Assembly: GCA_013298505.1 (NCBI GenBank)
Contig: JAAFHY010000001.1
Coordinates: 124,001 to 188,000 of the forward strand
Direction: 5' to 3'
DNA: 64,000 nucleotides
DNA from: Cytophagales bacterium
GTDB taxonomy: Bacteria > Bacteroidota > Bacteroidia > Cytophagales > Cyclobacteriaceae
The notes under the pieces were generated by a model. It saw nothing but the letters and a program-made list of their open reading frames with translations, was not told the origin of the DNA and ran no database searches. Position numbers and translations under genes: made by a program. Positions 38,610 through 58,592 of this stretch are shown here, in pieces. Position 1 is the stretch's first letter; each line of letters begins with the position of its first letter.

Positions 38610-39662
38610 ATGCTCGACCAACCCTCCTCCATCCGCGTAGGCGAAGAACTGAATACGGAGAAGCTATCCGCTTACTTGAAGGAACAACTTGTACTATCAA
38701 ATGAAATTTCTATCCAACAATTTCCAAGCGGCTACTCCAATCTCACCTATCTAATCCAAGCTGAGAAAGAAGAATACATCTTACGCAGGCCGCCCTTCGG
38801 TGCTAATATCAAATCCGCACACGATATGGAGCGCGAATACAACGTGTTGTCACTTTTGCGAAAGGCTGGTTTTACCAAAGCGCCTGAACCCGTTTTGCTT
38901 TGTGGCGATGAAAATATCATTGGTGCAAAGTTTTATTTAATGAAACGGGTAAACGGGGTCATCCTTCGAAACCGTGTGCCCAAAGGGATGACGATAGGAC
39001 CATCAACGTTCAATCAATTATCAAGAGCTACTGTTGATCAATTGGTACAGCTTCATCAACTTAATTTAGATTCTTCTGGGCTCAACCAATTGGGTAAACC
39101 CGAAGGCTACGTCCAGCGCCAGGTGGAAGGATGGACGAAGCGTTACTTCAATGCACAAACCGATGACATTGCCGCCATGAACGAAGCAGCAGATTGGATG
39201 CAAAAAAATATTCCTGCCTCTGCGAGGGCTTCGCTTATCCACAACGATTACAAGTACGATAACCTCGTGCTGAATCCCGATAACCTCACCGAAATTAAAG
39301 CAATTTTGGATTGGGAGATGGCTACCATAGGCGACCCGCTGATGGATTTGGGAACTACACTCGCGTATTGGGCGCAGGCAAATGACTCCGATGCATTGAA
39401 GCCGTTCAATCTAACATGGATGTCCGGCAACATGACGCGCCATGAAATGGCTCAGTACTATGCTGAAAAATCTCAAACCAACATTGATAACATTGTTTTT
39501 TATTATGTCTTCGGAAGTTTCAAAGTGGGAGTGATTTGCCAGCAGATTTACTATCGCTACAAGCAAGGACACACACAAGACCCACGGTTTGCTTCATTGA
39601 TTCATGTGATTAGAGCATGTGGGGAGAATGCAAGGAAAGCCATTTTTAATTCGTTGATTTGA
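38610..39662 (+). CDS. Phosphotransferase (ACAD10/11 N-domain / LvaA-like kinase)
   Basis: A 350-residue aminoglycoside-phosphotransferase-fold enzyme. Visible motifs are EYILRRPPFGANIKSAHDMEREY (nucleotide site), LIHNDYKYDNLVLNP (catalytic loop, HxDxxxxN type) and AILDWEMATIGDPLMDLG (metal-binding DWE). Enzymes of this group fused or linked to acyl-CoA dehydrogenases phosphorylate 4-hydroxyacyl-CoAs in mitochondria (ACAD10/11) and in the levulinate pathway (LvaA). Activity on a hydroxyacyl-CoA is inferred from this link. It lies between an acyl-CoA dehydrogenase and a 3-hydroxyacyl-CoA dehydrogenase in one operon. Confidence 0.87.
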   Translation: MLDQPSSIRVGEELNTEKLSAYLKEQLVLSNEISIQQFPSGYSNLTYLIQAEKEEYILRRPPFGANIKSAHDMEREYNVLSLLRKAGFTKAPEPVLLCGDENIIGAKFYLMKRVNGVILRNRVPKGMTIGPSTFNQLSRATVDQLVQLHQLNLDSSGLNQLGKPEGYVQRQVEGWTKRYFNAQTDDIAAMNEAADWMQKNIPASARASLIHNDYKYDNLVLNPDNLTEIKAILDWEMATIGDPLMDLGTTLAYWAQANDSDALKPFNLTWMSGNMTRHEMAQYYAEKSQTNIDNIVFYYVFGSFKVGVICQQIYYRYKQGHTQDPRFASLIHVIRACGENARKAIFNSLI

Positions 39663-39727
39663 TAATTCGTTGATGAAGTTAATTTTGAAACGAACGAATC
39701 ATCGAATCAACACATCACCGAATCAAC
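39649..39727. repeat. Imperfect palindromic element at a gene junction
   Basis: Repeated ATTCGTTGAT words on the left (39649-39675) face ATCGAATCAAC and ACCGAATCAAC on the right (39701-39727). The element fills the whole space between the phosphotransferase stop and the next start. It resembles in style, but not in exact words, the elements of the beta-oxidation operon near 49-53 kb. Confidence 0.55.
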
Positions 39728-39728
39728 T

Positions 39729-45908: not shown

Positions 45909-46709
45909 ATGAGGGTTGCTTTTACTTTTCTCTTTTGGATGGCATGGCAAATTTCCTTTGCTCAGAGCAGTGTCTTTACGGCTTTGTTAGAAACCATGCC
46001 ACAATCATCAGAGGGCTTGTATGAAAAAGAACTTATTGGATTTGTTAATGAGTTGAAAGAAAAGAGAGTGCATTATAAGAGCGAGATTCTTTTTTTTAAA
46101 AAGGTAGTAAGCAAGTCGCATAAAAAGTTTTTAAGAAACTATAAAGCTTACTCGCAGTTTAACGAAGTTCTTGAAGTTGGTAACTATGACTGCTTAAGTG
46201 GTACTGCTTTTTTCAGTGTTGTTTTAGGCGAACTTGGATTTACCTACAAAATAATTGAAACCAATTACCATATTTTTCTTTTGATAGATACCCCCACAAA
46301 GCAAATACTACTAGAAACAACCGATCGGATTGCAGGAATTAAAACCAATGCAAAAGAGGTAGAAAGAAGTTTGTCGAAGTACCGTCAAAATCAATTAATG
46401 GCAAATGTAGATAAAGACAATTACTACCGCTATCAAGCTAATTTATTTAGAGAAGTAAATCCACTTCAATTGAGTGGGTTACTTTTTTTCAATCAAGCTG
46501 TTGTTGCCTACAATCAGCACGATTGGGTTTTGTGTGCCGATAGACTAGAACGCGCAAGATCTATTTACTACAATGAGCGCGTGGAAGAACTCAGTGAACT
46601 ATTAATTGGTTCTGTTGCTTTAAGTTCTTTAGCTGAAGAGAAGAAAAGAGAATTAATGCGTACCCTAAAGAAGCATTTAACTTTATCCTCAACCGTAGCA
46701 ACTCGTTAA
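45909..46709 (+). CDS. Exported transglutaminase-like protein
   Basis: A 266-residue protein with a signal peptide (MRVAFTFLFWMAWQISFAQ). The middle part has a plausible papain/transglutaminase-type Cys in EVGNYDCLSGTAFFSVVLGELGF and a His in TNYHIFLLIDTPTKQILLETT, with Glu as possible third residue. The C-terminal half is helical and TPR-like (LLFFNQAVVAYNQHDWVLCADRLERARSIYYNERVEEL). I infer a transglutaminase-like fold from the Cys/His spacing only. It ends 26 bases before an IS256-derived element. Confidence 0.7.
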   Translation: MRVAFTFLFWMAWQISFAQSSVFTALLETMPQSSEGLYEKELIGFVNELKEKRVHYKSEILFFKKVVSKSHKKFLRNYKAYSQFNEVLEVGNYDCLSGTAFFSVVLGELGFTYKIIETNYHIFLLIDTPTKQILLETTDRIAGIKTNAKEVERSLSKYRQNQLMANVDKDNYYRYQANLFREVNPLQLSGLLFFNQAVVAYNQHDWVLCADRLERARSIYYNERVEELSELLIGSVALSSLAEEKKRELMRTLKKHLTLSSTVATR

Positions 46710-46724
46710 TTCTCGAGCACTCTA

Positions 46725-47234
46725 CTAAAAGTTGGGTCTGTAAATGACCAACGGATATTTCTTGCCCCATGCTTTATCCAACACATCAAGCTGTTGTTCG
46801 GCCAATTCTTTGGTGGTTGCACGGTACACTTCTTTCAGATCACTCAAGAAAGGTTTTTGATCTTTACTGGCCACATACTTGAGGCTGTTGCGTACCTGGT
46901 GTACAATGCAACTTTGCACTTCTACTTTAGGGAAAGTGCTTTGGATGGCCTCAGCGAAACCGTTGAGGTTATCAATACAAGCAATCAAAATATCGGCCAC
47001 ACCACGGTTGCGCAGATCAGATGTCTTGCTGCCCTTGCCGTTTTTACGGTTGCCCTCTTTGCGCTCATCAACGTCAAGGTGCGCATCAAGCTCACCTTCG
47101 AGAGCGGCTTCCAAAAAACTCTTGAACATCGGGGCGAACGCCCCATCTTTGCCGTACAACGATTTGCCCGAGCGGAACTGCTCAAGGGCTTTCTTTCTGA
47201 TCTCTTCTAAATTGAATTGTTCTTCGTTTTTCAT
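46725..47234 (-). pseudogene. IS256-family transposase, internally deleted and truncated
   Basis: A 169-residue remnant of a protein that is normally about 400 residues. The N-terminus (GAFAPMFKSFLEAALEGELDAHL and NRKNGKGSKTS) joins directly to DLRNRGVADILIACIDNL, so about 170 residues including the first catalytic Asp are missing in frame. The part VHQVRNSLKYVASKDQKPF and WGKKYPLVI is well preserved, then the frame runs into the terminal repeat and stops, losing the last 130 residues and the catalytic Glu. Only the second Asp (IACID) of the DDE triad is left, so it cannot be active. Confidence 0.9.
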
Positions 47235-47288
47235 ATCGTGTCAAAGTTGGTTGTTTTCCTTCTTTGACACAGTTTAATTTACAGCCTC
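46736..47288 (-). mobile_element. Shrunken IS256-type element with ends and target duplication
   Basis: A 553-base element. The ends read GTCTGTAAAT (46736-46745) and, on the other strand, GGCTGTAAAT (complement of 47278-47287). It is flanked directly by an exact 11-base direct repeat CTAAAAGTTGG (46725-46735 and 47289-47299). IS256-type elements usually make 8-9-base duplications, so 11 may include two chance matches. Only about ten bases of terminal repeat remain at the right end, where the transposase frame has been cut off next to the terminus. Confidence 0.8.
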
Positions 47289-47315
47289 TAAAAGTTGGAA
47301 GAACTAACCCAAAAA

Positions 47316-47347
47316 CAAAAAACCTGAAATTTCTCCCAGGCTTTTCT
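47316..47347 (-). terminator. Rho-independent terminator of the beta-oxidation operon
   Basis: On the minus strand AAAAGCCTG, a ten-base loop, CAGGTTTTTTG, then more T. The stem is seven to nine pairs including one G-T pair. It lies about 30 bases after the acyl-CoA dehydrogenase stop, at the end of the operon. Confidence 0.65.
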
Positions 47348-47373
47348 TGTGTCTTACTACTTATGTCTTGCGT

Positions 47374-49176
47374 CTAAAAAGGATACTCTCCTTTTCCAAT
47401 TGCGTGGTTCGCTACTTTGCGTCTCGCTTCTTTTAAGTTGTAGGCATCTATCTTGGTGAAGCGTTTCAAGCCGAGCATCATAAAGCGCAACTCGTCTCCT
47501 TCGGCAAACGCATAGATGGCTTGCTTGCCTGCACCCGCTGCCTTTTCAATTGCGTGGTGCAGATAAATCATGGCCATCGCAATTTCTACTTCACAGGCTT
47601 TCTCTCCACGCACACCTACTAATTTTTCCACTCGCAAAATCACCGACTCGGCAACGTAGCCCTCAATGAGCATATCAGCCAGGTTCATCAATATCTCCTG
47701 CTCTTCCGAAAGCTTCATCATAAACTTTTGAATGGCTGCACCCGAAACCATGAGACCTGCCTTCTTCAAATTCGCGATTGCCTTTTTTTCTTTTGCAAAT
47801 AGCACAGTATCGTCACTTGCACCAAAATCAGGAATGGAAGTCAATTCCTTCTGTACAGCCATGGCGGGCGTCATCAAATCCAATGTGCCTTTCATCGCAC
47901 GTTTTAACAGCATGTCGATTGTGAGTAGTCGGTTGATTTCATTCGTGCCTTCAAAGATGCGGTTGATGCGTGCATCACGATAGGCGCGATCCATCGGGCC
48001 CTCTGCAGAGAAGCCCATGCCTCCGTAAATCTGGACACCTTCGTCTACAGAAAAATCCAACACTTCGCTTCCATGTACTTTCAAAATGGCACACTCTATG
48101 GCAAAGTCTTCCAATGATTTTAATCGAGCCTGGCCTTTCTCCATGCCTCCCGCTACCAAAGCATCATACGCATCGTCAATATTTTGTGAAGCACGATAGT
48201 GTGCCGACTCAGATGCAAAAATCTTTGTTACTACTTCGGCTATCTTATGTTTAATCGCCCCGAAAGTGGAAATAGCGACACCGAATTGTTTGCGCTCATT
48301 TGAATATTTGATAGCCTGACTGATGGTACCTTTCGATCCGCCCAACGCACCCACTCCCAACTTAATACGGCCGATGTTCAGGATGTTCACTGCTATCTTA
48401 AACCCGTTCTCACGTTCACTCAATAAATTTTCTACCGGCACTTTGCAATCGTTGAAGAAAATCTGGCGGGTAGAAGATCCCTTGATACCCATTTTCTTTT
48501 CTTCTTCGTTCATGGTGATGCCACCAAAGTCCTTTTCAACAATAAAGGCTGTCAGATTTTTATCGTTATCGATTTTTGCGAATACAATAAAAATATCTGC
48601 AAAGCCACCGTTGGTGATCCACATTTTCTGACCGGTGATCAAATAATGTTTCCCATCGGCAGTCAATTTTGCTTTGGTCTTACCGCTGTTGGCATCAGAA
48701 CCGGAATCAGGTTCTGTCAAACAGTAGCTCGCCTTCCACTCGCCCGATGCCAGCTTAGGAATGTATTTTTGTTTTTGTGCATCATTTCCATAGTACAGAA
48801 TAGGCAATGTGCCAATGCCTGTGTGAGCAGAGATGGCCACTGCAAAAGAGTAGCCAGCGCCAACAGCTTCCGCCACCAACATGGTCGTATTAAAATCCAT
48901 TCCAAATCCGCCAAGTTCTTGCGGCACAGAAGTTCCCAATAGTCCGAGAGCCCCTGCCTTATCAAGAAGCGAAGGCATCAACTTGGGATCTTTCTGCGAA
49001 TCAATTAAATCCAAATGCGGGTATACTTCTTGCTTCAAAAAGTCTTTGCACGTCTGTGCAATCATCTTTTGCTCTTCTGTAAATTCTTCAGGAATGAAAA
49101 TTTCATGTGCCTGTGTTTCGCGGATGAGGAATTCACCGCCTTTGATTGCTTTCTTAGTTGCTGTCGTTGTTTCCAT
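47374..49176 (-). CDS. Acyl-CoA dehydrogenase (about 600 aa, VLCAD-like)
   Basis: A 600-residue flavoenzyme for the first step of beta-oxidation, in the long form with a C-terminal extension like VLCAD/ACAD9. Marks are CLTEPDSGSDANSGKTKA (FAD), YLITGQKMWITNGGFADIFIVFAK, the KERKQFG-type ERKQFGVAISTFGAIKHK, and INRIFEGTNEINRLLTIDMLLKRA with the catalytic Glu in FEGTNE. Last gene of the fatty-acid operon; its first 23 bases overlap the end of the four-helix-bundle gene upstream. Confidence 0.95.
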   Translation of the reverse strand: METTTATKKAIKGGEFLIRETQAHEIFIPEEFTEEQKMIAQTCKDFLKQEVYPHLDLIDSQKDPKLMPSLLDKAGALGLLGTSVPQELGGFGMDFNTTMLVAEAVGAGYSFAVAISAHTGIGTLPILYYGNDAQKQKYIPKLASGEWKASYCLTEPDSGSDANSGKTKAKLTADGKHYLITGQKMWITNGGFADIFIVFAKIDNDKNLTAFIVEKDFGGITMNEEEKKMGIKGSSTRQIFFNDCKVPVENLLSERENGFKIAVNILNIGRIKLGVGALGGSKGTISQAIKYSNERKQFGVAISTFGAIKHKIAEVVTKIFASESAHYRASQNIDDAYDALVAGGMEKGQARLKSLEDFAIECAILKVHGSEVLDFSVDEGVQIYGGMGFSAEGPMDRAYRDARINRIFEGTNEINRLLTIDMLLKRAMKGTLDLMTPAMAVQKELTSIPDFGASDDTVLFAKEKKAIANLKKAGLMVSGAAIQKFMMKLSEEQEILMNLADMLIEGYVAESVILRVEKLVGVRGEKACEVEIAMAMIYLHHAIEKAAGAGKQAIYAFAEGDELRFMMLGLKRFTKIDAYNLKEARRKVANHAIGKGEYPF

Positions 49177-49591
49177 ATGCTTGTAGTATTTCGTTGATCG
49201 TTGTTGGTTGTTGGTTAGTCGTTTGCTTTTGAAAATAATTTATAAATCCATTTATTAATTTCTTACATCTTATTACTTGTTCGAGAATTTTATCTAACTG
49301 ATCGACAGAAATAAATTCCAAATCAGATGCTATTATCAATTGAGTTTCAATTTCATAGAGCGATCCTCGTGCAATGAAAAAGAATTGAATTGAGTCTTTT
49401 GAATGATTCCTACCTGATCCTTCAGCTATGTTAGAAGGTACTGAAATAGCTGCTCTTCGCAATTGGTTGGTTAATCCAAACTGTTCTTCCTTTGGAAAAG
49501 ATTTACTGAGTTGATAAACGCTTTTTACCAACTGCCGGCTTTGTTGCCAAACATCTAAATCTCGATATGAAATAATTTCCGCCACGAACAA
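49154..49591 (-). CDS. Four-helix bundle protein (S23/IVP family)
   Basis: A 145-residue protein of the family once found in 23S rRNA intervening sequences (TIGR02436): SYRDLDVWQQSRQLVKSVYQLSKSFPKEEQFGLTNQLRRAAISVPSNIAEGSGR is the diagnostic N-terminal half. Start is TTG 49591 or GTG 49585 (VAEIISYRDL). The last 25 residues (QTTNQQPTTINEILQAYG) are encoded by a terminal inverted repeat and by the neighbour's start region, so the natural end of the domain is earlier. The gene sits inside a palindromic element between thiolase and acyl-CoA dehydrogenase and interrupts an otherwise standard operon. Function of the family is not established. Confidence 0.9.
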   Translation of the reverse strand: MFVAEIISYRDLDVWQQSRQLVKSVYQLSKSFPKEEQFGLTNQLRRAAISVPSNIAEGSGRNHSKDSIQFFFIARGSLYEIETQLIIASDLEFISVDQLDKILEQVIRCKKLINGFINYFQKQTTNQQPTTINEILQAYGNNDSN

Positions 49592-49616
49592 CGATTAACC
49601 AACAACCAACATCGAT
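49197..49616. repeat. Gene-carrying palindromic element with about 27-bp terminal inverted repeats
   Basis: The left arm ATCGTTGTTGGTTGTTGGTT with AGTCGTT (49197-49223) and the right arm, read on the other strand, ATCGATGTTGGTTGTTGGTT with AATCGTT (49590-49616), differ at two positions of 27. They enclose the four-helix-bundle gene. The right arm reaches the thiolase stop codon; the left arm lies 21 bases before the acyl-CoA dehydrogenase start. The word ATCGTTGTTCGTGG continues inside the right arm and recurs in the element at 53271-53348. Confidence 0.75.
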
Positions 49617-50791
49617 TAATTCAACAATTCATAAATCCCCGCCACTCCCTGTCCTCCACCTACACAAGCTGTCACCATTCCATATTTTTTGTTTTGTCTG
49701 CGTAGCTCATTGAAGAGTTGTACAGACAACCGCGCGCCTGATGAACCGAGTGGATGACCCACTGCAATAGCACCTCCGTTTACATTTAGTTTTGATCGAT
49801 CGATGCCCAATTCTTTTACCACTGCTAATGATTGTGCAGCAAAGGCTTCGTTCAATTCAATCAAATCAATGTCTTGCAATTTTAGTCCGGCAATTTTTAA
49901 TGCCTTAGGAATTGCTGCTACCGGACCTATACCCATGATTCGTGGATCAACACCTGCGGTGGCATAACTCACCATGCGGGCGATGGGTTTTAGATTCAGC
50001 TGCTTCACCATCTTCTCACTCATCACGGCAACAAAGGCTGCGCCATCTGAAGTTTGAGATGAATTTCCAGCGGTAACAGAACCGCCCACCGCAAATACGG
50101 GTTTCAATTTTGAAAGTCCTTCGAAAGTGGTGTCCGCACGAATCCCTTCATCTTTGTTGACTACGTATTCGCGAGTTTGCTTTTTCATGTTCTCATCCAC
50201 ATATACTTCCTTCACAGTGATGGGCACCACCTCATTGGTGAATTTACCCTCCTTCCACGCTGCAGCCGCTTTCACATGCGACTCCACTGAAAATTGATCT
50301 TGCTCTTCTCGAGTAATGTTAAATTGCTTCGATACTTCTTCGGCCGTTAAGCCCATACTGGTGTAGTAGGTAGGATTGTCTTTAGCAATTGCATAATTCA
50401 ATGCCGTCTTAAAACCCATCACCGGAACTAAAGACATGGACTCTGTTCCACCGGCAATAATCACATCGGCTTGTCCCGCTTGGATGCGATGACTCGCAAT
50501 AGCGATAGCCTCCACTCCTGATCCGCAATAGCGATTGATCACCATGCCTGGTGTATCAAGACCAAGCGCAAGCAGTGAAATGATGCGACCCATCTGCATA
50601 CCTTGCTCCGCTTCGGGAACCGCATTGCCAACGATGAGATCATCGACCATTTTGTTCTCTAAGCCGGGGATTGATTTCACCAAGTGCTTAATCACATCCG
50701 AGGCCAGATCATCAGGTCTCATAAAACGAAACCCTCCTTTTTTTGCCTTTCCAACTGCTGTTCTAAAACCTGCTACGATGTATGCGTCCAT
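49616..50791 (-). CDS. Acetyl-CoA acyltransferase (thiolase)
   Basis: A 391-residue thiolase that cleaves 3-ketoacyl-CoA in the last step of beta-oxidation. The nucleophilic Cys is in VINRYCGSGVEAIA, the His of the second motif in NVNGGAIAVGHPLGSSGAR and the final Cys/His block in GMVTACVGGGQGVAGIYE. The internal GGTESMSLVPVMG and LIELNEAFAAQSLAV are also typical. It follows the fused multifunctional gene in the operon, separated by a palindromic element. Confidence 0.95.
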   Translation of the reverse strand: MDAYIVAGFRTAVGKAKKGGFRFMRPDDLASDVIKHLVKSIPGLENKMVDDLIVGNAVPEAEQGMQMGRIISLLALGLDTPGMVINRYCGSGVEAIAIASHRIQAGQADVIIAGGTESMSLVPVMGFKTALNYAIAKDNPTYYTSMGLTAEEVSKQFNITREEQDQFSVESHVKAAAAWKEGKFTNEVVPITVKEVYVDENMKKQTREYVVNKDEGIRADTTFEGLSKLKPVFAVGGSVTAGNSSQTSDGAAFVAVMSEKMVKQLNLKPIARMVSYATAGVDPRIMGIGPVAAIPKALKIAGLKLQDIDLIELNEAFAAQSLAVVKELGIDRSKLNVNGGAIAVGHPLGSSGARLSVQLFNELRRQNKKYGMVTACVGGGQGVAGIYELLN

Positions 50792-50795
50792 AATT

Positions 50796-50870
50796 TTGGT
50801 TGTTCGTTGTTAGTTATTGGTTGTTCGTAAAGGCTGCCCGAATAACGAACAACCACAAACGAACAACGAC
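50796..50870. repeat. Empty palindromic element between thiolase and multifunctional gene
   Basis: TTGGTTGTTCGTTGTTAGTT on the left and CGAACAACCACAAACGAACA on the right. The inner arms GGTTGTTCGT (50819-50828) and ACGAACAACC (50844-50853) are an exact 10-base inverse around AAAGGCTGCCCGAAT. The element fills the whole junction between the two coding regions. Confidence 0.75.
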
Positions 50871-53270
50871 TTAATTTCTCAATGGTTTCCCTCCCGTTAA
50901 AATTGCCTGAATTCTTTCCAGTGTTTTCTTCTCACCTGTTAATGACAAAAACGCTTCTCTCTCCAGATCAAGTAAGTACTGTTCGCTCACTTCTTGTGGA
51001 GATGTCAAGTCGCCTCCGCACATAATGTTAGAGATCCATTTGGCAACTTTGGCATCGTGCTCTGAAATGTACTTGCCCATTTTCATTCCTTGCAAGCCTG
51101 CTAAGAACAACGCTTGACCGGTTCGACCTTGCACTTTAATATTTTTTGCTTGCGGTTGCATCGTATAGCCTGCTTCCACCAGATCAAGAACGGCTTGCTT
51201 AGCATCGACAATCTGTCTGTCTTTATTCATCGACACACGGTCGATCTTTTTCAAAATGCCAAACTCACGCGCTTCCTCTGCCGAGGTAGCAACTTTTGCT
51301 GTCGCAATAGTCATAAAGGCATTTTGTAGTGCATTCAATTCCACATCCCCTTCTTCCATCGCATCACTTACCCGTTTGGTGAATTCTTTGGTTCCGCCTC
51401 CACCGGGGATTAGTCCAACACCTACCTCTACTAATCCGATATACGTTTCAGCTGCTGCCTGGGCGATGTCTGCATGCATGGTCATTTCACAACCGCCTCC
51501 TAGCGTTCTGCCCTGCGGACAAACTGCAACTGGTACACCTGAGTAACGAATGCGCATCACTGATTGTTGGAAAGCCTTGATCATGAAATCGATCTCATCA
51601 TAATCTTGCTCGATGGCATACATAAACACTAGACCCAAATTCGCGCCAAGAGAAAAGTCAGCCCCTTGATGGCCGATCACCAACCCTTTGTAATCTTTCT
51701 CCGCCAGGTCGATGGCTTTGTTCATTCCCTCAATCACAGCACTGCCTAGAGTAAAGCTCTTGCTATGCCAGCCGAAATTGAGTACGCCATCACCCAAATC
51801 AATAATTTTTGAATCGGCATTTTTCCAAACGATGTTCTCACTCTTGTTTTCTAGAATGATAAAATTCTCCCTTCCAGAAATTGACTTATAGGTTTTGGTA
51901 GGAATGTCGTAGTATTTCTTCTGACCACCTTCTGCTTTGTAGAAGGTTTTGTTTCCAGACGCCAGCATGTCATACACCCATTGCGCTGGTTTGTATCCGG
52001 CTGCTTCCATGAGTGGAATTGATTTTTCAACACCTACTGCATCCCATGTTTCGAACGGTCCGAGATCCCAGCCAAAACCACCACTTACGGCATCATCGAT
52101 ACGGAAAAGTTCATCGCTGATTTCGGGAATACGGTTGGTCACATATTGGAACAAGCCGTAAAAACAATCGCGATAAAAATCACCCGCCTTGTCTTTTCCT
52201 GCCAACAACACTTTGAAGCGATCTTTGAGATTGTCAATCGTCTTCGTTGTTTCGAGTGTTGCAAATTTTGCTTTTGCCTTTGGCTTGTATTCTAACGTCT
52301 TTAAATCTAGGGTTAAGATTTCCGTTTCGCCTTTGGCATTTTTTGATTTTTTGTAGAAGCCCTGGCCTGTTTTATCGCCCAGCCATTTATTCTGCTCGAG
52401 CTTCGTAACTACTTCCGGAAGTTTGAACATTTCTCTTCCCTCGTCATTCACCAATCCTGCATAGAGGTTATTAGAAACTTTCACTAAAGTATCTAAACCT
52501 ACCACATCCGAAGTGCGGAATGTAGCGGACTTTGGCCGGCCAATGACGGGTCCGGTTAACTTATCTACCTCATCCACATTTAAGTCAAACTTGCGCATGG
52601 AGTCGATCACCTTCAACAAACCAAAAATTCCCACGCGATTTCCAATAAAGGCCGGAGTGTCTTTACATAGCACAGTCGTCTTTCCTAAGAAAAGATCGCC
52701 ATAGTGCATCAAGAATTTTGTAACAACTGGATCGGTTTTACCTGTTGGGATGATCTCCAACAATTTTAAGTAGCGGGGAGGGTTAAAAAAGTGCGTGCCC
52801 GCAAAATGCCTTTGAAAATCTTCGCTGCGTCCTTCACCCATCAGGTGAATAGGGATGCCTGAAGTATTGGAAGTAATTAACGTTCCGGGTGTTCTGTGTT
52901 TTTCAACCTCTTCGTATACTTTCTTTTTAATATCCAGGTTTTCGACAACGACTTCGATGGTCCAATCAACATTTTTTATTTTGGCCATGTCGTCTGCGAA
53001 GTTACCGAGTTTGATACGCGAAGCGAACTTCTTATTAAAGAGTGAAGCCGGATTCGCCTTGAGGGTAGCGTCAAAGGCCGCATTCACTATTCTGTTTTTT
53101 ACAGCAGGATGATCGAGCGTTAAGTTTTTCTTTTTCTCTTCATCGGTCAGCTCTCTGGGGGCGATATCCAGCAGCAGCACCTCGCAACCAATATTGGCGA
53201 AGTGGCACGCAATGCGTGAGCCCATAATACCTGATCCTAAAACTGCGACTTTGCGAATGGTACGGTTCAT
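50871..53270 (-). CDS. Fused 3-hydroxyacyl-CoA dehydrogenase / enoyl-CoA hydratase
   Basis: A 799-residue multifunctional beta-oxidation enzyme. The order is dehydrogenase first (Rossmann motif KVAVLGSGIMGSRIACHFA; GTHFFNPPRYLKLLEIIP; GNRVGIFGLLKVIDSMR) and hydratase domain last (VIGHQGADFSLGANLGLVFMYA; VGVGLIPGGGGTKEF), the reverse of E. coli FadB. This reversed fusion is usual in Bacteroidota and relatives. The open frame extends to 53333, but the first 21 residues are encoded by the repeat at the gene junction, so the start is ATG 53270 (MNRTIRKVAVLG). Confidence 0.93.
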   Translation of the reverse strand: MNRTIRKVAVLGSGIMGSRIACHFANIGCEVLLLDIAPRELTDEEKKKNLTLDHPAVKNRIVNAAFDATLKANPASLFNKKFASRIKLGNFADDMAKIKNVDWTIEVVVENLDIKKKVYEEVEKHRTPGTLITSNTSGIPIHLMGEGRSEDFQRHFAGTHFFNPPRYLKLLEIIPTGKTDPVVTKFLMHYGDLFLGKTTVLCKDTPAFIGNRVGIFGLLKVIDSMRKFDLNVDEVDKLTGPVIGRPKSATFRTSDVVGLDTLVKVSNNLYAGLVNDEGREMFKLPEVVTKLEQNKWLGDKTGQGFYKKSKNAKGETEILTLDLKTLEYKPKAKAKFATLETTKTIDNLKDRFKVLLAGKDKAGDFYRDCFYGLFQYVTNRIPEISDELFRIDDAVSGGFGWDLGPFETWDAVGVEKSIPLMEAAGYKPAQWVYDMLASGNKTFYKAEGGQKKYYDIPTKTYKSISGRENFIILENKSENIVWKNADSKIIDLGDGVLNFGWHSKSFTLGSAVIEGMNKAIDLAEKDYKGLVIGHQGADFSLGANLGLVFMYAIEQDYDEIDFMIKAFQQSVMRIRYSGVPVAVCPQGRTLGGGCEMTMHADIAQAAAETYIGLVEVGVGLIPGGGGTKEFTKRVSDAMEEGDVELNALQNAFMTIATAKVATSAEEAREFGILKKIDRVSMNKDRQIVDAKQAVLDLVEAGYTMQPQAKNIKVQGRTGQALFLAGLQGMKMGKYISEHDAKVAKWISNIMCGGDLTSPQEVSEQYLLDLEREAFLSLTGEKKTLERIQAILTGGKPLRN

Positions 53271-53348
53271 AATTGGTTGTTGGTTGTTCATTAGTTGTTG
53301 TCGGCTAGTAGTCTTCGGTGAACGAACAACCACCCACGAACAACGATC
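53271..53348. repeat. Empty palindromic element between MarR gene and multifunctional gene
   Basis: AATTGGTTGTTGGTTGTTCA on the left; on the other strand the right side reads GATCGTTGTTCGTGGGTGGT. It shares ATCGTTGTTCGTGG with the gene-carrying element at 49590-49616 and GGTTGTTCGTT with the one at 50796-50870. It stretches from directly before the start of the multifunctional gene to the stop of the MarR gene. Confidence 0.75.
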
Positions 53349-53798
53349 TCATTGTAAAACTTTTTCGTAAATATTATTCTTCTCTACTACTTGATTAATA
53401 CACTGCACCACTTCAAAAAAGGTATTCAATTTTTGTGGGGATACCTCTTCGCGCACGGCATCGTTAAACCGCAATACCGTTTCACGCGATTTTTCTTTCA
53501 TCTTTCTTCCTTCTTTGGTCAACAATACTCTTACTGAGCGTTTATCATTTTTATCAACTTCCCGATAGATCAATCCCTTTTCTTCCATCGATTTCAACAG
53601 TCGCGTCAAGCTTCGTGGCTCCAATCCCATGAGTGGCCCTATCTTCGTTGCAGCCACACCCTCTTCCGATGATATATTTAGCAACGCATAGCCAATCGAC
53701 ATGGTGCCGTCATACTTCATAGCCTGCTGATTGTACATGCGCGAGATGGCATGCCAAGCTGCTTTGATGTGATAGTCTATAGTTTCTTCTCTTTTCAA
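53349..53798 (-). CDS. MarR-family transcriptional regulator
   Basis: A 149-residue winged-helix regulator. The DNA-binding part is VAATKIGPLMGLEPRSLTRLLKSMEEKGLIYREVDKNDKRSVRVLLTKEGRKM, with the DKRSVRVLLT wing. It is the first gene of the beta-oxidation operon and most likely represses it, with an acyl-CoA or fatty acid as probable ligand; that is inference from context. An AGACGTCT palindrome upstream may be its operator. Confidence 0.9.
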   Translation of the reverse strand: MKREETIDYHIKAAWHAISRMYNQQAMKYDGTMSIGYALLNISSEEGVAATKIGPLMGLEPRSLTRLLKSMEEKGLIYREVDKNDKRSVRVLLTKEGRKMKEKSRETVLRFNDAVREEVSPQKLNTFFEVVQCINQVVEKNNIYEKVLQ

Positions 53799-53883
53799 GT
53801 GGTTACGAAGGTATAAAAAATTTATTCTGCATGCCGAGCATTTTGTTAAATTTATTTTTGGGGCAAGGGCTCTTTATATAGTC

Positions 53884-53891
53884 AGACGTCT
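53884..53891. promoter_or_regulatory. Candidate MarR operator
   Basis: AGACGTCT, a perfect 8-base palindrome extended by TCA and TGA outside, in the 140-base gap between the divergent MarR and ATP-grasp genes. Weak, since only eight bases are exact. Confidence 0.3.
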
Positions 53892-53900
53892 TGATTCGCC

Positions 53901-53908
53901 TATTTTTG
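53901..53908 (+). promoter_or_regulatory. Candidate -7 element for the ATP-grasp gene
   Basis: TATTTTTG fits TAnnTTTG and stands 30 bases before the ATG at 53939. The -33 region is not clear. Confidence 0.3.
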
Positions 53909-53938
53909 AATCCTTAAAAACCCAAGTTGCTCCATCCG

Positions 53939-54820
53939 ATGCCCAAAAAAATCGCCTTCGTTACCTGTTCCACCAAGCCAGAGTTTGCCAGCGATGATAT
54001 TCCTGTCGTGGATTTGCTACAGTCGAAGGGCACAGAGGTGCAACCACTTCCGTGGGATGCAGAGTCTGATCAATGGAAGGCTTTTGATTTAGTGGTGATC
54101 CGTTCGTGTTGGAACTACCACCTCCATCCAGAAAAGTTTATGCAATGGCTTGATCAAATGGAAAGCCAAAAGGTGAAGTTGTTCAATTCAGCAAAAACGG
54201 TGAGATGGAATCTTCACAAAGGATATTTAAAGGAGCTCGAACAAAAAGGTGTTCCGCTACCAGAAACCATTTGGCTTAAAAAAGGGAAGGGTGCAAATCT
54301 TTCTCAGTTGATAACGGAAAAGAACTGGGAGAAGGCTGTGGTGAAGCCTGCCATCTCGGCCACGGCCTTCAATACCTTTTTAGTTTCACATGCAGAAAAT
54401 GAACAGCAGCAACAGAAATTTGCTGAACAACTTTTCAGTGCAGATACGTTAATTCAAAAGTTCATGCCCGAAGTGCAACAAGAAGGAGAATGGTCATTGA
54501 TTTTCTTCGATAAGAAATTTAGTCATTCGGTGATAAAGCGGCCTACGTCAAAAGATTTTCGCGTCCAAAATGATTTTGGCGGAAGTGCTGAACTTGCTTC
54601 TCCACCTCCTTTTGCATTGGAACAGGCACAAAAAGTTCTTTTAATGATTGATGAACCACTCCTTTATACGAGAGTAGATGGGGTTATTTCTAACAATCAA
54701 TTTTTGTTGATGGAATTAGAGTTGATTGAGCCGATGTTGTTTTTAGCCGATGAAAAAGATGCTGGTGAAAGATTTGCAAATTCTATTATTGAAAAATGTC
54801 GTGGTGCTATCACCCCTTAG
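53939..54820 (+). CDS. ATP-grasp enzyme, glutathione-synthetase-like
   Basis: A 293-residue ATP-grasp ligase. The N-terminal part (KKIAFVTCSTKPEFASDDIPVVDLLQSKG; DLVVIRSCWNYHLHPEKFMQWLDQ) is followed by the ATP-binding block KAVVKPAISATAFNTFLV, GEWSLIFFDKKFSHSVIKRP, RVQNDFGGSAELASPP and the metal site YTRVDGVISNNQFLLMELELIEP. This group contains the DcsG-like and prokaryotic glutathione-synthetase-like proteins; the substrates joined here are unknown. The frame opens at TTG 53927, but MPKKIAFVTC at 53939 is the natural start. The end overlaps the convergent TMEM175-like gene by 11 bases. Confidence 0.85.
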   Translation: MPKKIAFVTCSTKPEFASDDIPVVDLLQSKGTEVQPLPWDAESDQWKAFDLVVIRSCWNYHLHPEKFMQWLDQMESQKVKLFNSAKTVRWNLHKGYLKELEQKGVPLPETIWLKKGKGANLSQLITEKNWEKAVVKPAISATAFNTFLVSHAENEQQQQKFAEQLFSADTLIQKFMPEVQQEGEWSLIFFDKKFSHSVIKRPTSKDFRVQNDFGGSAELASPPPFALEQAQKVLLMIDEPLLYTRVDGVISNNQFLLMELELIEPMLFLADEKDAGERFANSIIEKCRGAITP

Positions 54821-55430
54821 CCAGCCTCTCCTTTTTATCAAACCTTCGTTCTGATATTCCTTGCACAATAAAAATCAGAATAAATAAAAACCTTGCCGTC
54901 CAAGGCTCCACAAACTCGAGAGGTATGGAGAGTGCCCAAATGATTGGTGCGATGATAATGCGCGTACGCAGCCTGCCCACAACTAATGGTGTAAGTATTT
55001 CGCTGTGTCCTTCCTTGCGAACAATATAGTTGAGCATAAAAAGGTTTAAAAGACCAATTGCTACAAGATTGACACAATAGAAAATAAATGGGCCATGCTC
55101 TCTAAAATACTTAGCATAAAAAGCAGTGGAAAAAGGAAGCAGCACAATAGACATCAACAACCACACATTGAGCCACAGCAAGCGATTGTCATAGCTTTTT
55201 ACAAACCCTGCCAATGTAAGATGAAGCCGCCAGTACAGTGCGGTAACTAAAAAGCTAATAATAAATCCAATAAAGCTTGGGATTAGCCTTGCTAAAACTC
55301 CCCAGGTACCGAACTCTTCAAGTGCCTCAGGTGATGGGATTTTTATTTCTAATATTAATAGTGTCATCGCGATGGCAAATACAGCATCGCAAAAATTATT
55401 GATTCGGTCGTTGGGAAAGCGGTTGAGCAT
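54810..55430 (-). CDS. TMEM175/DUF1211-family putative potassium channel
   Basis: A 206-residue membrane protein with six helices. The first helix has the family motif in the form RINNFCDAVFAIAMTLLILEIK; bacterial TMEM175 channels normally show R-x3-FSD, so Ser is replaced by Cys here. LYWRLHLTLAGFVKSYDNRLLWLN in the third helix region is also family-typical. Bacterial members are tetrameric potassium channels; selectivity cannot be judged from the sequence. Confidence 0.88.
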   Translation of the reverse strand: MLNRFPNDRINNFCDAVFAIAMTLLILEIKIPSPEALEEFGTWGVLARLIPSFIGFIISFLVTALYWRLHLTLAGFVKSYDNRLLWLNVWLLMSIVLLPFSTAFYAKYFREHGPFIFYCVNLVAIGLLNLFMLNYIVRKEGHSEILTPLVVGRLRTRIIIAPIIWALSIPLEFVEPWTARFLFILIFIVQGISERRFDKKERLAKG

Positions 55431-55503
55431 ACCGAAATATACAAGTCCTTTCTAAAAAACGGCCTATCGCCTGCAACCTTTCTTGATAAGTCATCGTCTA
55501 ATA

Positions 55504-55518
55504 CCTAAATCTCTTAGG
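55504..55518. promoter_or_regulatory. Candidate PadR operator
   Basis: CCTAA-ATCTC-TTAGG, a perfect inverted repeat 14 bases before the PadR start codon. PadR regulators often bind just upstream of their own gene. Five-base arms are short, so the call is weak. Confidence 0.35.
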
Positions 55519-55531
55519 CAATAAGACTATT

Positions 55532-55864
55532 ATGCATTCACCCGAACTATTAAAAGGCACGCTCCAAACCATTTTGCTAAAAGTATTGAAAGACCATGGC
55601 AGGATGTATGGGTATGAAATCACCCAGCGAGTAAAGGAACTTTCCGAAAGTCAGCTCTTGCTTACGGAGGGGGCGCTTTACCCTGCTTTACACAAACTGG
55701 AGGCCGAAGGGATTTTAAAAACAGAAACGGTGATGATCGGAAAACGAGTACGGAAGTATTATTCACTTACCAGCACAGGTCGCTCGTTAGCAAAAGATCG
55801 TGTAGAAGAATTAGTTGATTTTATTAAAACCATGAGTAATGTGTTGCAAGTAAAACTCGCCTGA
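55532..55864 (+). CDS. PadR-family transcriptional regulator
   Basis: A 110-residue winged-helix regulator: ELLKGTLQTILLKVLKDHGRMYGYEITQRVKEL, then LLTEGALYPALHKLEAEGILKTET with the YPALHKLE recognition helix, and a wing with GKRVRKYYSLTSTGR. It is followed one base later by the permease gene, with which it surely forms an operon. PadR-permease pairs are common in Bacteroidota; the regulator likely represses the permease. Confidence 0.93.
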   Translation: MHSPELLKGTLQTILLKVLKDHGRMYGYEITQRVKELSESQLLLTEGALYPALHKLEAEGILKTETVMIGKRVRKYYSLTSTGRSLAKDRVEELVDFIKTMSNVLQVKLA

Positions 55865-55865
55865 T

Positions 55866-58592
55866 ATGGCAGCGTTGACTAAAGACCATATCGACTACAT
55901 CATCAAAGACCTGAACTACCGCGGCATTGTAGCCGAGGAGATTGAGAATGAATTAACCGATCACATCTGTTCAGTCACGGAAGCTGAAATGGAGAAAGGC
56001 AAAAAATTCATTGAAGCCTATCACGAAGTATTAAAATCATTTGGCCACACCAGCGGCCTTCGCGAAATACAGAAGCAAACATTGAAAGTTGAAAATCAAA
56101 AAGCTACCATTATGCTAAAAAACTATCTCACCATCGCTTTCCGCAATCTGCGCAAGCAAAGCTTTTATTCCTTTATCAACATTGGGGGATTAGCCGTTGG
56201 TGTAGCTGCCTGCTTGGTCATTGTGCTGTTTATCATTGATGAATTGGGTTACGATAAATACAATACAAAAGCCGATCGCATCTTTCGCATTGATAATGAA
56301 ATCAAGTTTGGTGGAAACTACTATCACATCAACACCAGTTCGGCACCCGCTGCGCACACATTATTACAAGACTATCCCGAGATTGAATCAACGGTTCGCT
56401 TTCGTAGCTATGGATCATACTTAGTGAAGACAGGAGAAGGGGTAGAAGGCATCAAGGAAAGCAATGTAATTTGGACGGACAGTACATTTTTTAAAATTTT
56501 CTCTATACCCGTTCTTGAAGGCGACCCGACCACTGCTTTAAAGGAGCCAGCCAGCATCGCCATCAGCCAACGCACCGCCCAAAAGTATTTTCCAAATAAA
56601 AGTGCATTAGGCCAATCATTGATTTTAGATAATAAATATAATGCCAAGGTCACGGCTGTTTTCAAAGATATTCCCTCCGCATCGCATTTTCATTTCGATA
56701 TTCTGATCTCTATGATTGGAGATTGGCCTGTGGCAAGAGAAGCACGCTCAACCGTATTTCTCAGCAACAATTTTCCAACCTACGTACTCTTGAAAGAAGA
56801 TGCCGATGCTAAGGCATTGGAAGCAAAACTTCCTGGCTTTGTGGCAAAATACATTGGTCCGCAATTAGCACAAATATTGGGTGGCGATTTTACGATAGAG
56901 AAATTCCGTGCGTCTGGAAATAAATTTGACATGAGCTTGATACCCCTCACAAATATTCATCTTCGCTCTGACTTGAAGGGCGAGTTTGAACCGAATGGCA
57001 GCATTACTTATGTTTATCTGCTTAGCACAGTAGCATTATTTATATTGGTCATTGCCTGTATCAATTTCATGAACCTGTCCACTGCACGCTCCAGCAATCG
57101 CGCCAAAGAGGTAGGGGTGCGCAAAGTAATGGGGTCATTGCGTTCTCATCTCGTGCGACAGTTCTTAACAGAGTCTACTTTGATTACACTGTTCGCTTTC
57201 GTCCTAGCAATTGGTGTCGCGTATTTGATGCTTCCTGTATTTAATAACCTCGCGCTAAAGCAACTTACTATTCCTTTTGGCAGTTCATTCTTTTACCTAT
57301 TGCTCATCAGTGCTGCTCTTTTCGTTGGAGTGTTGGCAGGTCTTTACCCGTCCTTTTTTCTTTCAGCTTTCAAGCCTGTACATGTTTTGAAGGGGCACGT
57401 TGCATTAGGAATGAAAAGTGGGTTCATAAGAAGTGCGTTGGTGGTATTTCAATTTGTGATTTCTATTTTCCTGATTGTTGGAGCGATTACTGTTAATCGT
57501 CAATTGACTTACATCCAAAACAAGAAACTTGGTTTTGATAAAGAGCAAGTAATTATTGTGAGAGATGCGTATGCGCTTCGCCCAAACAAAGTCGAGACAT
57601 TTAAAAACGAAGTGTTAAAAAACAGCTCGATCCAGAATGGAAGCATTTCTGGCTTTCTACCAGTGGAAAGTGAAAATTCAGGGCGCAACGATAACTCCTA
57701 TTGGAAAGAAGGAAATGAACCTACTACAGAAAACTTGGTGAGCATGCAAGACTGGAGAGCTGATTATGATTACATCAAAACATTCGGCATGAAAATCAAA
57801 ATGGGCCGTGGTTTTTCAAATGAATTTCCTTCCGATTCATCAGCAGTAATCCTAAACGAAGCGGCTGTTCAGCATTTCGAGTTGGGCGATGACCCCATTG
57901 GTAAAAAGATAAGCACATTCCGCGGGCAGCGACCTGATGGTTCTCCTGACCCCAACCAAACAAAGTCGTGGACAGTGATTGGCGTAGTTGAAAATTTTCA
58001 TTTCTCTACCCTGCGCGAAGGGATTACTTCGCTTGGGCTGTTCTTAGACAAAAGTGATGGCTTTGTGAGTTTTCGCGTCAATGCAGGCAACCCTCAGGAT
58101 ATCATTCGATCAATCGAAAAAGTCTGGAAAGGGTTAGCACCCGATCAGCCTTTCCAGTATTCATTCTTAGATGAAGATTTTGGAAAGATGTATGCCTCCG
58201 AACAGCGATTGGGGAAAATCTTTACCGTGTTCGCTGGTCTGGCCATCATCATCGCGTGCCTTGGTTTATTTGCCCTCACGGCTTTCACCGCTGAACAAAG
58301 AACAAAAGAAATCGGAATTAGAAAAGTACTGGGTGCCAGCGTGAGCAGCATTGTGGTATTACTCTCCAAAGAGTTTGGAAAATTGATTCTCATTGCGTTC
58401 GTCATCGCCACACCCATCGCGTGGTTTGGCGTGGACTGGTGGCTGAAAAGCTACACCTACAAAACAGAAGTAGGTGTGATGGTGTATATTTTAGCCGGGG
58501 CGTTCGCTTTTATCATTGCGTGGATTACGATGGGGTACCAATCCATAAGGGCGGCCAGCTCCGATCCAGTGAAGAGTTTAAGGAGTGAGTAG
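55866..58592 (+). CDS. FtsX-type ABC transporter permease with N-terminal prefix domain
   Basis: A 908-residue permease. The first 80 residues form a soluble prefix domain (IDYIIKDLNYRGIVAEEIENELTDHICSVTEAEMEKGKKFIEAYHEVLKSFG) that the 832-residue permease at 31.4 kb lacks; this matches the 'permease prefix domain' type of PadR-linked transporters. Then follow NYLTIAFRNLRKQSFYSFINIGGLAVGVAACLVIVLF, a periplasmic core, the FtsX unit (CINFMNLSTARSSNRAKEVGVRKVMGS), a second core and the final QRTKEIGIRKVLGASVSSIVVLLSKEF. No ATPase gene is adjacent. Confidence 0.9.
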   Translation: MAALTKDHIDYIIKDLNYRGIVAEEIENELTDHICSVTEAEMEKGKKFIEAYHEVLKSFGHTSGLREIQKQTLKVENQKATIMLKNYLTIAFRNLRKQSFYSFINIGGLAVGVAACLVIVLFIIDELGYDKYNTKADRIFRIDNEIKFGGNYYHINTSSAPAAHTLLQDYPEIESTVRFRSYGSYLVKTGEGVEGIKESNVIWTDSTFFKIFSIPVLEGDPTTALKEPASIAISQRTAQKYFPNKSALGQSLILDNKYNAKVTAVFKDIPSASHFHFDILISMIGDWPVAREARSTVFLSNNFPTYVLLKEDADAKALEAKLPGFVAKYIGPQLAQILGGDFTIEKFRASGNKFDMSLIPLTNIHLRSDLKGEFEPNGSITYVYLLSTVALFILVIACINFMNLSTARSSNRAKEVGVRKVMGSLRSHLVRQFLTESTLITLFAFVLAIGVAYLMLPVFNNLALKQLTIPFGSSFFYLLLISAALFVGVLAGLYPSFFLSAFKPVHVLKGHVALGMKSGFIRSALVVFQFVISIFLIVGAITVNRQLTYIQNKKLGFDKEQVIIVRDAYALRPNKVETFKNEVLKNSSIQNGSISGFLPVESENSGRNDNSYWKEGNEPTTENLVSMQDWRADYDYIKTFGMKIKMGRGFSNEFPSDSSAVILNEAAVQHFELGDDPIGKKISTFRGQRPDGSPDPNQTKSWTVIGVVENFHFSTLREGITSLGLFLDKSDGFVSFRVNAGNPQDIIRSIEKVWKGLAPDQPFQYSFLDEDFGKMYASEQRLGKIFTVFAGLAIIIACLGLFALTAFTAEQRTKEIGIRKVLGASVSSIVVLLSKEFGKLILIAFVIATPIAWFGVDWWLKSYTYKTEVGVMVYILAGAFAFIIAWITMGYQSIRAASSDPVKSLRSE

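Follow-up and report, generated by a model that had tools for sequence, protein, structure and literature searches.

Why does every internal junction of a bacterial fatty-acid operon hold a palindrome, and why does one of these palindromes enclose a gene for a four-helix-bundle protein? The question is raised by a 64,000-nucleotide (nt) stretch from a Cytophagales bacterium (assembly GCA_013298505.1, contig JAAFHY010000001.1, positions 124,001 to 188,000 of the forward strand), here called the window, whose operon contains marR-like, hydratase/dehydrogenase, thiolase and acyl-CoA dehydrogenase genes. The enclosed gene belongs to the S23 (IVP) family, and its association with inverted arms built of short tandem words is real and general. 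The word varies with the protein, gene-free palindromes elsewhere in a genome match the words of its own S23 genes, gene and arms occupy a characteristic position, and the same junctions differ between species. We propose, as an account that is probable but leaves considerable room for doubt, that gene and arms form a spreading unit, usually within operons, whose noncatalytic protein would recognize its own word.

S23 genes and their periodic arms

An initial annotation, made from the letters of the window, had described inverted elements at all three internal operon junctions, an S23/IVP-family gene between the arms of one, and a word common exactly to the gene-carrying and one empty element, and each of these features is present (Table 1). 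The protein matches PF05635 at 138.8 bits (cut-off 33.8) and TIGR02436 at 120.7 bits (cut-off 24), and the common word, CCACGAACAACGAT (reverse complement of ATCGTTGTTCGTGG), has exact copies at 49582-49595 and 53334-53347. The arms flanking the gene pair over 30 nt (49194-49223 with 49590-49619; 90% complementary, spacing 366 nt), and the listed S23 open reading frame (ORF), whose start codon is uncertain, starts inside the 5′ arm and extends across the 3′ arm, so that its end overlaps the first bases of the acyl-CoA dehydrogenase gene. The arms have no fixed sequence and consist of tandem degenerate GTTGTTN heptads facing their inverse, with a best lag of 7 in four of the six arms in the window. 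The most degenerate element, 53271-53348, has best lags of 11 and 4 and was not picked up when the DNA was scanned without bias for palindromes whose arms are periodic. Allowing at most two mismatches, GTTGTTSGTTGTT has 21 occurrences in the window, where 4.4 would be expected (maximum 10 in 100 shuffles); one of the weak extra word clusters, at 17944-18047, lies inside an uninterrupted reading frame of 2 kb or more.

The same anatomy recurs at the other S23 genes of this genome (G000; 3.96 Mb, 206 contigs, listed contamination 2.19%; other G numbers denote related genomes of the same genus). For all eight of its PF05635 genes, the score of the flanking inverted pair exceeds those of all 20 flank shuffles, and six genes reach a stricter arm score of 26, with L004 (23) and L007 (25) below it. 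By the 5′ arm, the best lag is 7 in six genes and 8 in L004 and L008, although stricter scoring gives 9 for L004. Read by eye, their words are AAAGCTG, GTTGTTN, AGAAGTY, CGGACTN, ATTCAAR, an ATTA-rich word, TTAGGAC and the octad GATTCGGT.

S23/IVP matches are found in 157 of 198 Bacteroidota genomes (153 over the cut-off), with up to 16 in one genome. The loci analyzed here are the best-scoring matches listed per search and not a random draw. For the genus, 120 profile matches were deduplicated to 110 and reduced to 106 genes from 30 genomes by removing three genes cut by locus ends and one with a short flank. The mean arm score of this set is 32.7, compared with 17.6 for mismatched flank pairs; 83 of the 106 exceed the 95% point of the control and 37 its maximum. 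The corresponding counts are 29 and 4 among 48 genes from across the phylum, and 61 and 27 among 82 genes from named public genomes, which include metagenome-assembled genomes (MAGs) labeled Planctomycetes, Gemmatimonadetes, Acidobacteria, Omnitrophica and Clostridia (labels as deposited). Over all 234 deduplicated S23 genes, an arm score of at least 26 is reached by 153, as against 2 of 400 other genes (240-1500 nt, from samples of three same-genus genomes, with flank windows of slightly different size), so S23 genes do sit between such arms more often than other genes, as the initial annotation had proposed to check. The best lag is 7 in 116 and 8 in 25 of these 153 genes (141 together). What had been taken for a single family of elements is instead many, with words that differ between S23 lineages. 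Near one S23 unit, in a MAG labeled Bordetella parapertussis (a doubtful label), an S-adenosylhomocysteine (SAH) riboswitch was matched (RF01057, 54.8 bits; L294, 378-454).

Table 1. Operon genes, arms and palindromic elements in the window
Feature	Positions	Strand	Basis
MarR-family regulator gene, host operon	53349..53798	-	profile search
3-hydroxyacyl-CoA dehydrogenase / enoyl-CoA hydratase gene (3HCDH/ECH), host operon	50871..53267	-	profile search
Thiolase gene, host operon	49616..50791	-	profile search
Acyl-CoA dehydrogenase gene, host operon	47374..49176	-	profile search
S23/IVP four-helix-bundle gene (PF05635, TIGR02436)	49154..49591	-	profiles and structure model
5′ arm (gene sense), GTTGTTN heptads, overlapping thiolase stop codon	49582..49619	-	arm pairing, lag analysis
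3′ arm, inverse heptads	49194..49223	-	arm pairing, lag analysis
Gene-free GTTGTTN palindrome, hydratase/dehydrogenase–thiolase junction	50796..50870	n/a	unbiased scan, RNA fold z -6.2
Gene-free GTTGTTN palindrome, more degenerate, marR-like–hydratase/dehydrogenase junction	53271..53348	n/a	
Gene-free octad palindrome between two other fatty-acid metabolism genes	~39648..39728	n/a	unbiased scan

Adjoining the operon, positions 46725-47234 match part of a Mutator-family transposase (positions 216-307 of the 379 in the profile), probably a remnant.

Words that follow the protein

The structure model of the window S23 protein is of high confidence (predicted local distance difference test score, pLDDT, 94.5), and its best structural match is 2gsc (template-modeling score, TM, 0.88), followed by 2rld. 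It also resembles Avd, the accessory protein of diversity-generating retroelements (4dwl; TM 0.77, Foldseek E 0.039), and the retroelement complexes 8ub7 and 8ube were matched as well; in sequence, the Avd profiles bAvd (25.8 bits) and NF033474 (24.8 bits) both fall under their cut-offs. Profile searches with this protein found no match to a catalytic-domain family, and passages of the literature (PMC4990558 among others) term the function of S23/IVP proteins unknown or uncharacterized. The family is under purifying selection: the ratio of nonsynonymous to synonymous substitution rates (dN/dS) has a median of 0.09 and is always below 0.5 in the 40 pairs with finite dS, taken from 66 close pairs after omission of 26 with saturated dS. 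A role as a defense system was dropped when a PADLOC search with the window protein gave no match, and carriage by phage was dropped when a phage collection gave none.

On a tree of the 106 genus proteins, the words cluster by clade when read by eye. Numerically, word similarity correlates with protein identity over 5044 pairs from different genomes with nonhomologous neighbors (r 0.195; maximum 0.066 in 1000 permutations). The correlation persists in cross-set pairs of all 234 genes (Mantel r 0.165; none of 1000 permutations as high, maximum 0.058), with control values of -0.002 for outer flanks, -0.027 for reverse-complemented arms and 0.044 for arms read backwards. The signal emerges above about 50% protein identity, and at 60-65% the mean similarity is 0.209 for arms, 0.077 for outer flanks, 0.041 for reverse complements and 0.145 for arms read backwards; the low reverse-complement value indicates that the polarity of the word is fixed. 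The window protein follows the same trend, as its 18 closest relatives outside the genus have a mean word similarity of 0.273 compared with 0.051 for the remaining proteins, and most of the ten closest (from Aequorivita, Winogradskyella, Adhaeribacter, Flagellimonas, Flavobacterium and others) carry GTTG-type words. The word of a Pedobacter protein with 62% identity to it (L260) is not GTTG-type.

Such a correlation would also arise with no recognition at all if gene and arms were co-inherited and co-transferred, the heptads arose by slippage and the words merely marked descent. We consider this improbable. It would fit the degenerate heptads, which look slippage-made, the joint movement of gene and arms at the thiolase junction described below, and the similarity of outer flanks and reversed arms at high protein identity; at 55-65% identity, however, similarity is seen in the arms and the outer flanks stay at background level, and the word recurs at unrelated sites in gene-free copies, whose occurrence varies from genome to genome with S23 content. 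Mere descent also sits poorly with two positions of the trimmed domain, 103 and 107 in its C-terminal part, that vary together with the word of the 5′ arm more than overall identity accounts for (0.236 and 0.153; null 95% 0.100), a result that we treat as a lead because relatedness is only partly controlled in it. The same two positions come out on top with the 5′ arm alone, which answers a possible artefact of the overlap between 3′ arm and coding sequence.

Gene-free copies and operon junctions

The unbiased palindrome scan gave 13 lag-7, 3 lag-8 and 1 lag-5 entries in 464 kb of G000 and 9 lag-7 entries in 400 kb of G023; one element in each genome was entered twice, and the elements number 15 and 8. 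A 400-kb sample of G015, whose sole S23 match (E 1.3e-4) is under the cut-off, contained no lag-7 or lag-8 element (two of lag 6 and one of lag 13 were found). The gene-free palindromes are much closer to the S23 words of the genome they lie in than to same-size sets from other genomes, with similarities of 0.643 versus 0.233 in G000 and 0.620 versus 0.195 in G023, where the arms of an interrupted S23 gene at the thiolase junction were added by hand; none of 2000 random sets was as good in either genome. The octad palindrome of Table 1, for example, has a word closest to that of the S23 gene L008 on contig C20.

The content of whole genomes points the same way. Counts of two words across the 30 genus genomes are uncorrelated with each other (-0.02), and both words are commoner in genomes with a known cognate S23 gene (one-sided p 0.012 and 0.0023), with the caveat that a subset of the genus S23 genes was retrieved, so that cognates may be missed. 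In a forward test, 18 of the 80 named loci were chosen and classed by their S23 arm words. The eight genomes with GTTG-type arms contain 35, 16, 89, 27, 293, 26, 24 and 34 GTTGTT matches and the other ten contain 2, 1, 0, 10, 2, 4, 5, 6, 2 and 0, so that the two ranges (16-293 and 0-10) do not overlap (p 0.0002). This comparison rests on the other genomes, since a reversed-pattern control is uninformative when the pattern read backwards keeps its period-7 core. In Hymenobacter piscis, the genome with 293 matches, the GTTGTT arrays at L374, L380, L381, L382 and L386 abut a second repeat, GAACGTCATTC.

High-copy palindromes could instead be moved by a different enzyme, with S23 as a passenger. 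Repetitive extragenic palindromic (REP) elements are likewise small palindromic high-copy repeats, hypothesized in part of PMC3733652 to be moved by REP-associated tyrosine transposases (RAYTs), and a RAYT, another Y1 transposase or a reverse transcriptase would be the counterpart here. Profile searches found Y1_Tnp matches in 24 of the 30 genus genomes, all except G003, G007, G010, G014, G017 and G018. Among these six, G007 (listed as 100% complete) has 44 word matches and a cognate S23 gene. RVT_1 matches were found in only 10 of the 30, with none in G000, G007, G010, G017 or G024. The absence of Y1_Tnp (G007, G010, G017) or RVT_1 matches from element-rich genomes disfavors either enzyme as the motor, and even allowing for an enzyme once present and later lost we hold this explanation to be very improbable. 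One genome, G023 (contig C1), has 13 RVT_1 matches, several with identical scores.

The gene-carrying units have a characteristic position. Among 174 units with an arm score of at least 24, 153 could be classified, and 137 of these lie between two same-direction genes and are co-oriented with both; a further nine are co-oriented with the upstream gene only (146 with the upstream gene in all), and in seven the upstream gene is opposed. The median gap between the upstream stop codon and the arm is 1 nt, and that between the arm and the following start codon is 7 nt. Such stop-to-start placement leaves little room for a promoter, so that expression is probably by read-through.

Junction contents turn over within the genus, as a by-eye comparison of 28 loci around the thiolase gene illustrates. 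The upstream junction holds an S23 unit in 15 loci (one interrupted), a gene-free element in 5 and neither in 6, with two loci not fully visible, and the downstream junction holds an S23 unit in 13, a gene-free element in 8 and neither in 7. The upstream units carry the words AGTAGGC, AATTGACA and AGTATTT and the downstream units GTTGTT, TTGAGAT and TTAGACA. Nine of the 13 gene-free elements share the word of the adjacent S23 unit, those of G040, G039 and G012 differ, and that of G024 is ambiguous. In the interrupted unit (upstream junction of G023, L150) the S23 frame has one internal stop, and the arms and a neighboring element with the same word remain. G000 and G024 are 93, 91 and 85% identical in the DNA that flanks the thiolase junctions, yet both junctions differ; identity stops within the stop codon and returns in the opening codons of the gene that follows. 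At the 25 loci compared for ilvN-ilvC and ilvC-ilvA, the junctions have either no element or elements with differing words. Orthologous junctions are therefore not shared vertical features, a check that the initial annotation had asked for, and may be empty, element-only or filled by different S23 units within one genus. A second ilvC on contig C86 of G000 (L362), 97% identical to the copy on C158, has junction words AGTAGGC and AATTGACA; it is either a paralogue or part of a contaminant contig.

This turnover bears on whether S23 might be a host regulator that binds its word in junction hairpins and tunes the stability or translation of operon messages, its own arms serving autoregulation and the scatter of words reflecting recruited targets with no selfish spread. 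Strong purifying selection and the placement of units between stop and start codons of co-directional genes would suit such a role, to which we assign a modest minority chance, as would the presence of the fold relative Avd in reverse-transcriptase ribonucleoprotein structures (8ub7, 8ube). One element of the window, 50796-50870, folds well as RNA (z -6.2 against shuffles), whereas 53271-53348 folds no better than its shuffles (z -0.87). The marked junctions, however, vary among species of one genus, and the different words found at one junction amount to poor conservation of a regulon; moreover, 9 of the 24 gene-free elements are flanked by genes in convergent or divergent orientation. Arm mismatches show no excess of G.U (81) over A.C (80), and pairing of the arms at the RNA level is thus without support. 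Exact register pairing is a weak candidate as well, as in-register pairing reaches 0.824 versus 0.770 with shuffled heptad order and 9 of 76 loci fall below 5%. Stop codons in all frames were considered as the driver of periods coprime to 3 and rejected, because the stop triplets per position in 5′ arms (0.096; shuffles 0.088, standard deviation 0.003) are exceeded in the reversed arm (0.106).

Proposed mechanism and known systems

In the model that we favor, the spreading unit would be an S23 (IVP, Avd-like) gene inside a long palindrome with arms of tandem heptads or octads, typically filling the stop-to-start gap between operon genes and read in the operon direction. Its product, a four-helix bundle with no known catalytic domain that is expected to form a pentamer, would recognize the word of its own arms, either as DNA or as a transcribed hairpin. 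Recognition would let arms that share a word, whether or not they enclose the gene, multiply into other gene junctions, with host functions supplying the strand chemistry. Gene-free palindromes would be non-autonomous copies maintained by the cognate S23 gene and may persist for a time as orphans after that gene is lost or replaced, and S23 lineages with different words would form separate families in one genome. The initial annotation had likewise read the elements as a mobile unit with non-autonomous empty versions; the enrichment of S23 genes between arms and the turnover of junctions speak for that reading, its single family has become many, and mobility is inferred from distribution, since no transposition event was seen and no target duplication was apparent by eye at the two much-diverged junctions compared base by base.

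The lack of visible transposition is one of several points that count against the spreading unit, and the DNA-moving step has no explanation in the model. The closest protein's word falls in the top 10% for only 41 of the 106 genus genes, and above 65% protein identity outer flanks are similar too (0.14-0.23), which together with the 0.145 for arms read backwards means that shared context or composition contributes to the word signal. One of the eight gene-free elements of G023 has no matching S23 gene, and G024 and G010 have many GTTGTT matches and no cognate among the S23 genes examined. Most of 20 loci examined in H. piscis are one-sided arrays, several within long ORFs. Co-directional junctions are not preferred by the gene-free elements: counting 53271-53348 there are 24, of which 15 are at co-directional, 5 at convergent and 4 at divergent sites, against a background of 494 co-directional among 712. 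The slight gain from register and the near equality of G.U and A.C mismatches leave nothing that favors an RNA hairpin. Finally, the S23 gene is opposed to both neighbors at three of 11 cyanobacterial loci (Nostoc edaphicum, Calothrix PCC 7716 and Stanieria), which read-through does not fit.

S23 genes occur on 25 plasmid records, mostly cyanobacterial, and at the 11 loci examined the arm score is at least 29 in nine and the lag 7 in seven. Six exceed the control 95% point, which is high (36) because words recur among the few cyanobacterial loci; Nostoc HK-01 scores 20 and Pseudanabaena, with long arrays of the same orientation on both sides, 13. Heptads, GGGAGTR and AGTCAGR among them, make up several of the arms. 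AGTCAGR has 24, 21 and 6 matches on the three plasmids with this word in their S23 arms, 12 and 11 on two others, and 0-1 on the remaining six, with a reversed control of 0. Heptanucleotide tandem repeats (short tandemly repeated repetitive sequences, STRRs) were reportedly described in heterocystous cyanobacteria by Mazel et al. in 1990, and the arm heptads look like them; no protein is known to be linked to STRRs. Some plasmid S23 genes lie between CRISPR genes, namely cas10/cmr2 and cmr3 at L390 and cas6 and cas4 at L392 and L397, with inverted-arm scores of 29, 50 and 13, respectively. The occurrence of IVP genes in cas loci is noted in part of PMC3936711.

A broader claim, to which we give slightly less than an even chance, is that S23/IVP is a word-reading family in which each lineage reads its own 7- or 8-nt array and spreads palindromes between genes in many phyla, which would explain the heptanucleotide repeats of both Bacteroidota and heterocystous cyanobacteria. 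If true, such a family would amount to a selfish system that does without a transposase and whose protein-to-sequence code can be read, and the many natural protein-word pairs would be a ready set for deriving that code. The tie between protein lineage and word gives S23 proteins a testable substrate, may link the two puzzles of intervening sequence (IVS) elements and heptanucleotide repeats, and suggests that the spread of a sequence family in bacterial genomes can involve a partner protein other than a transposase.

Among known systems, REP elements and RAYTs offer the resemblance that the initial annotation had pointed to, in that both combine short palindromes outside genes, a gene enclosed by copies of that sequence and many gene-free copies. 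The likeness ends at the gene, as the cognate RAYT is a Y1/HUH transposase and S23 (PF05635) matches no such family, and some element-rich genomes have no Y1_Tnp match. REPs are not known to have a heptad period. A GTAG tetranucleotide at one end is given as a REP/RAYT feature in part of PMC3733652. The Avd proteins of diversity-generating retroelements share the fold and a weak sequence similarity with S23, and RVT_1 is absent from several element-rich genomes here.

The rRNA IVS elements are closer relatives. PMC4990558 terms the IVS of Coxiella 23S rRNA selfish, gives it 428 nt and a 28-bp terminal stem, and describes the S23p protein as seemingly not produced in vivo. For candidate phyla radiation (CPR) bacteria, IVP ORFs are reported within 16S and 23S insertions (PMC11270868). 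These elements share with the units described here the S23/IVP family, a similar size, terminal inverted repeats around an ORF and a protein whose function is termed unknown. They differ in lying inside rRNA genes, from which RNase III cuts them out, whereas the present units lie between protein genes: no Rfam match was found in positions 46000-57000 of the window, no rRNA match was found in the 20 of 80 named loci searched, and all 153 classifiable units lie between ORFs. Unlike the IVS elements as described, the present units have arms with a 7- or 8-nt period, a word linked to the protein and gene-free relatives at many junctions. A four helix bundle gene is listed between guanylate kinase and nicotinate-nucleotide adenylyltransferase genes in part of PMC5524665. 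No description of periodic arms around S23 genes was found in the literature searched, which consisted partly of best-ranked listings and left subscription papers mostly uncovered. Of the two closest kinds, the rRNA IVS fails as an equivalent of the unit on rRNA location and REP/RAYT on the Y1 transposase, although the IVS elements of rRNA could turn out to be one instance of the general association of S23 genes with periodic arms.

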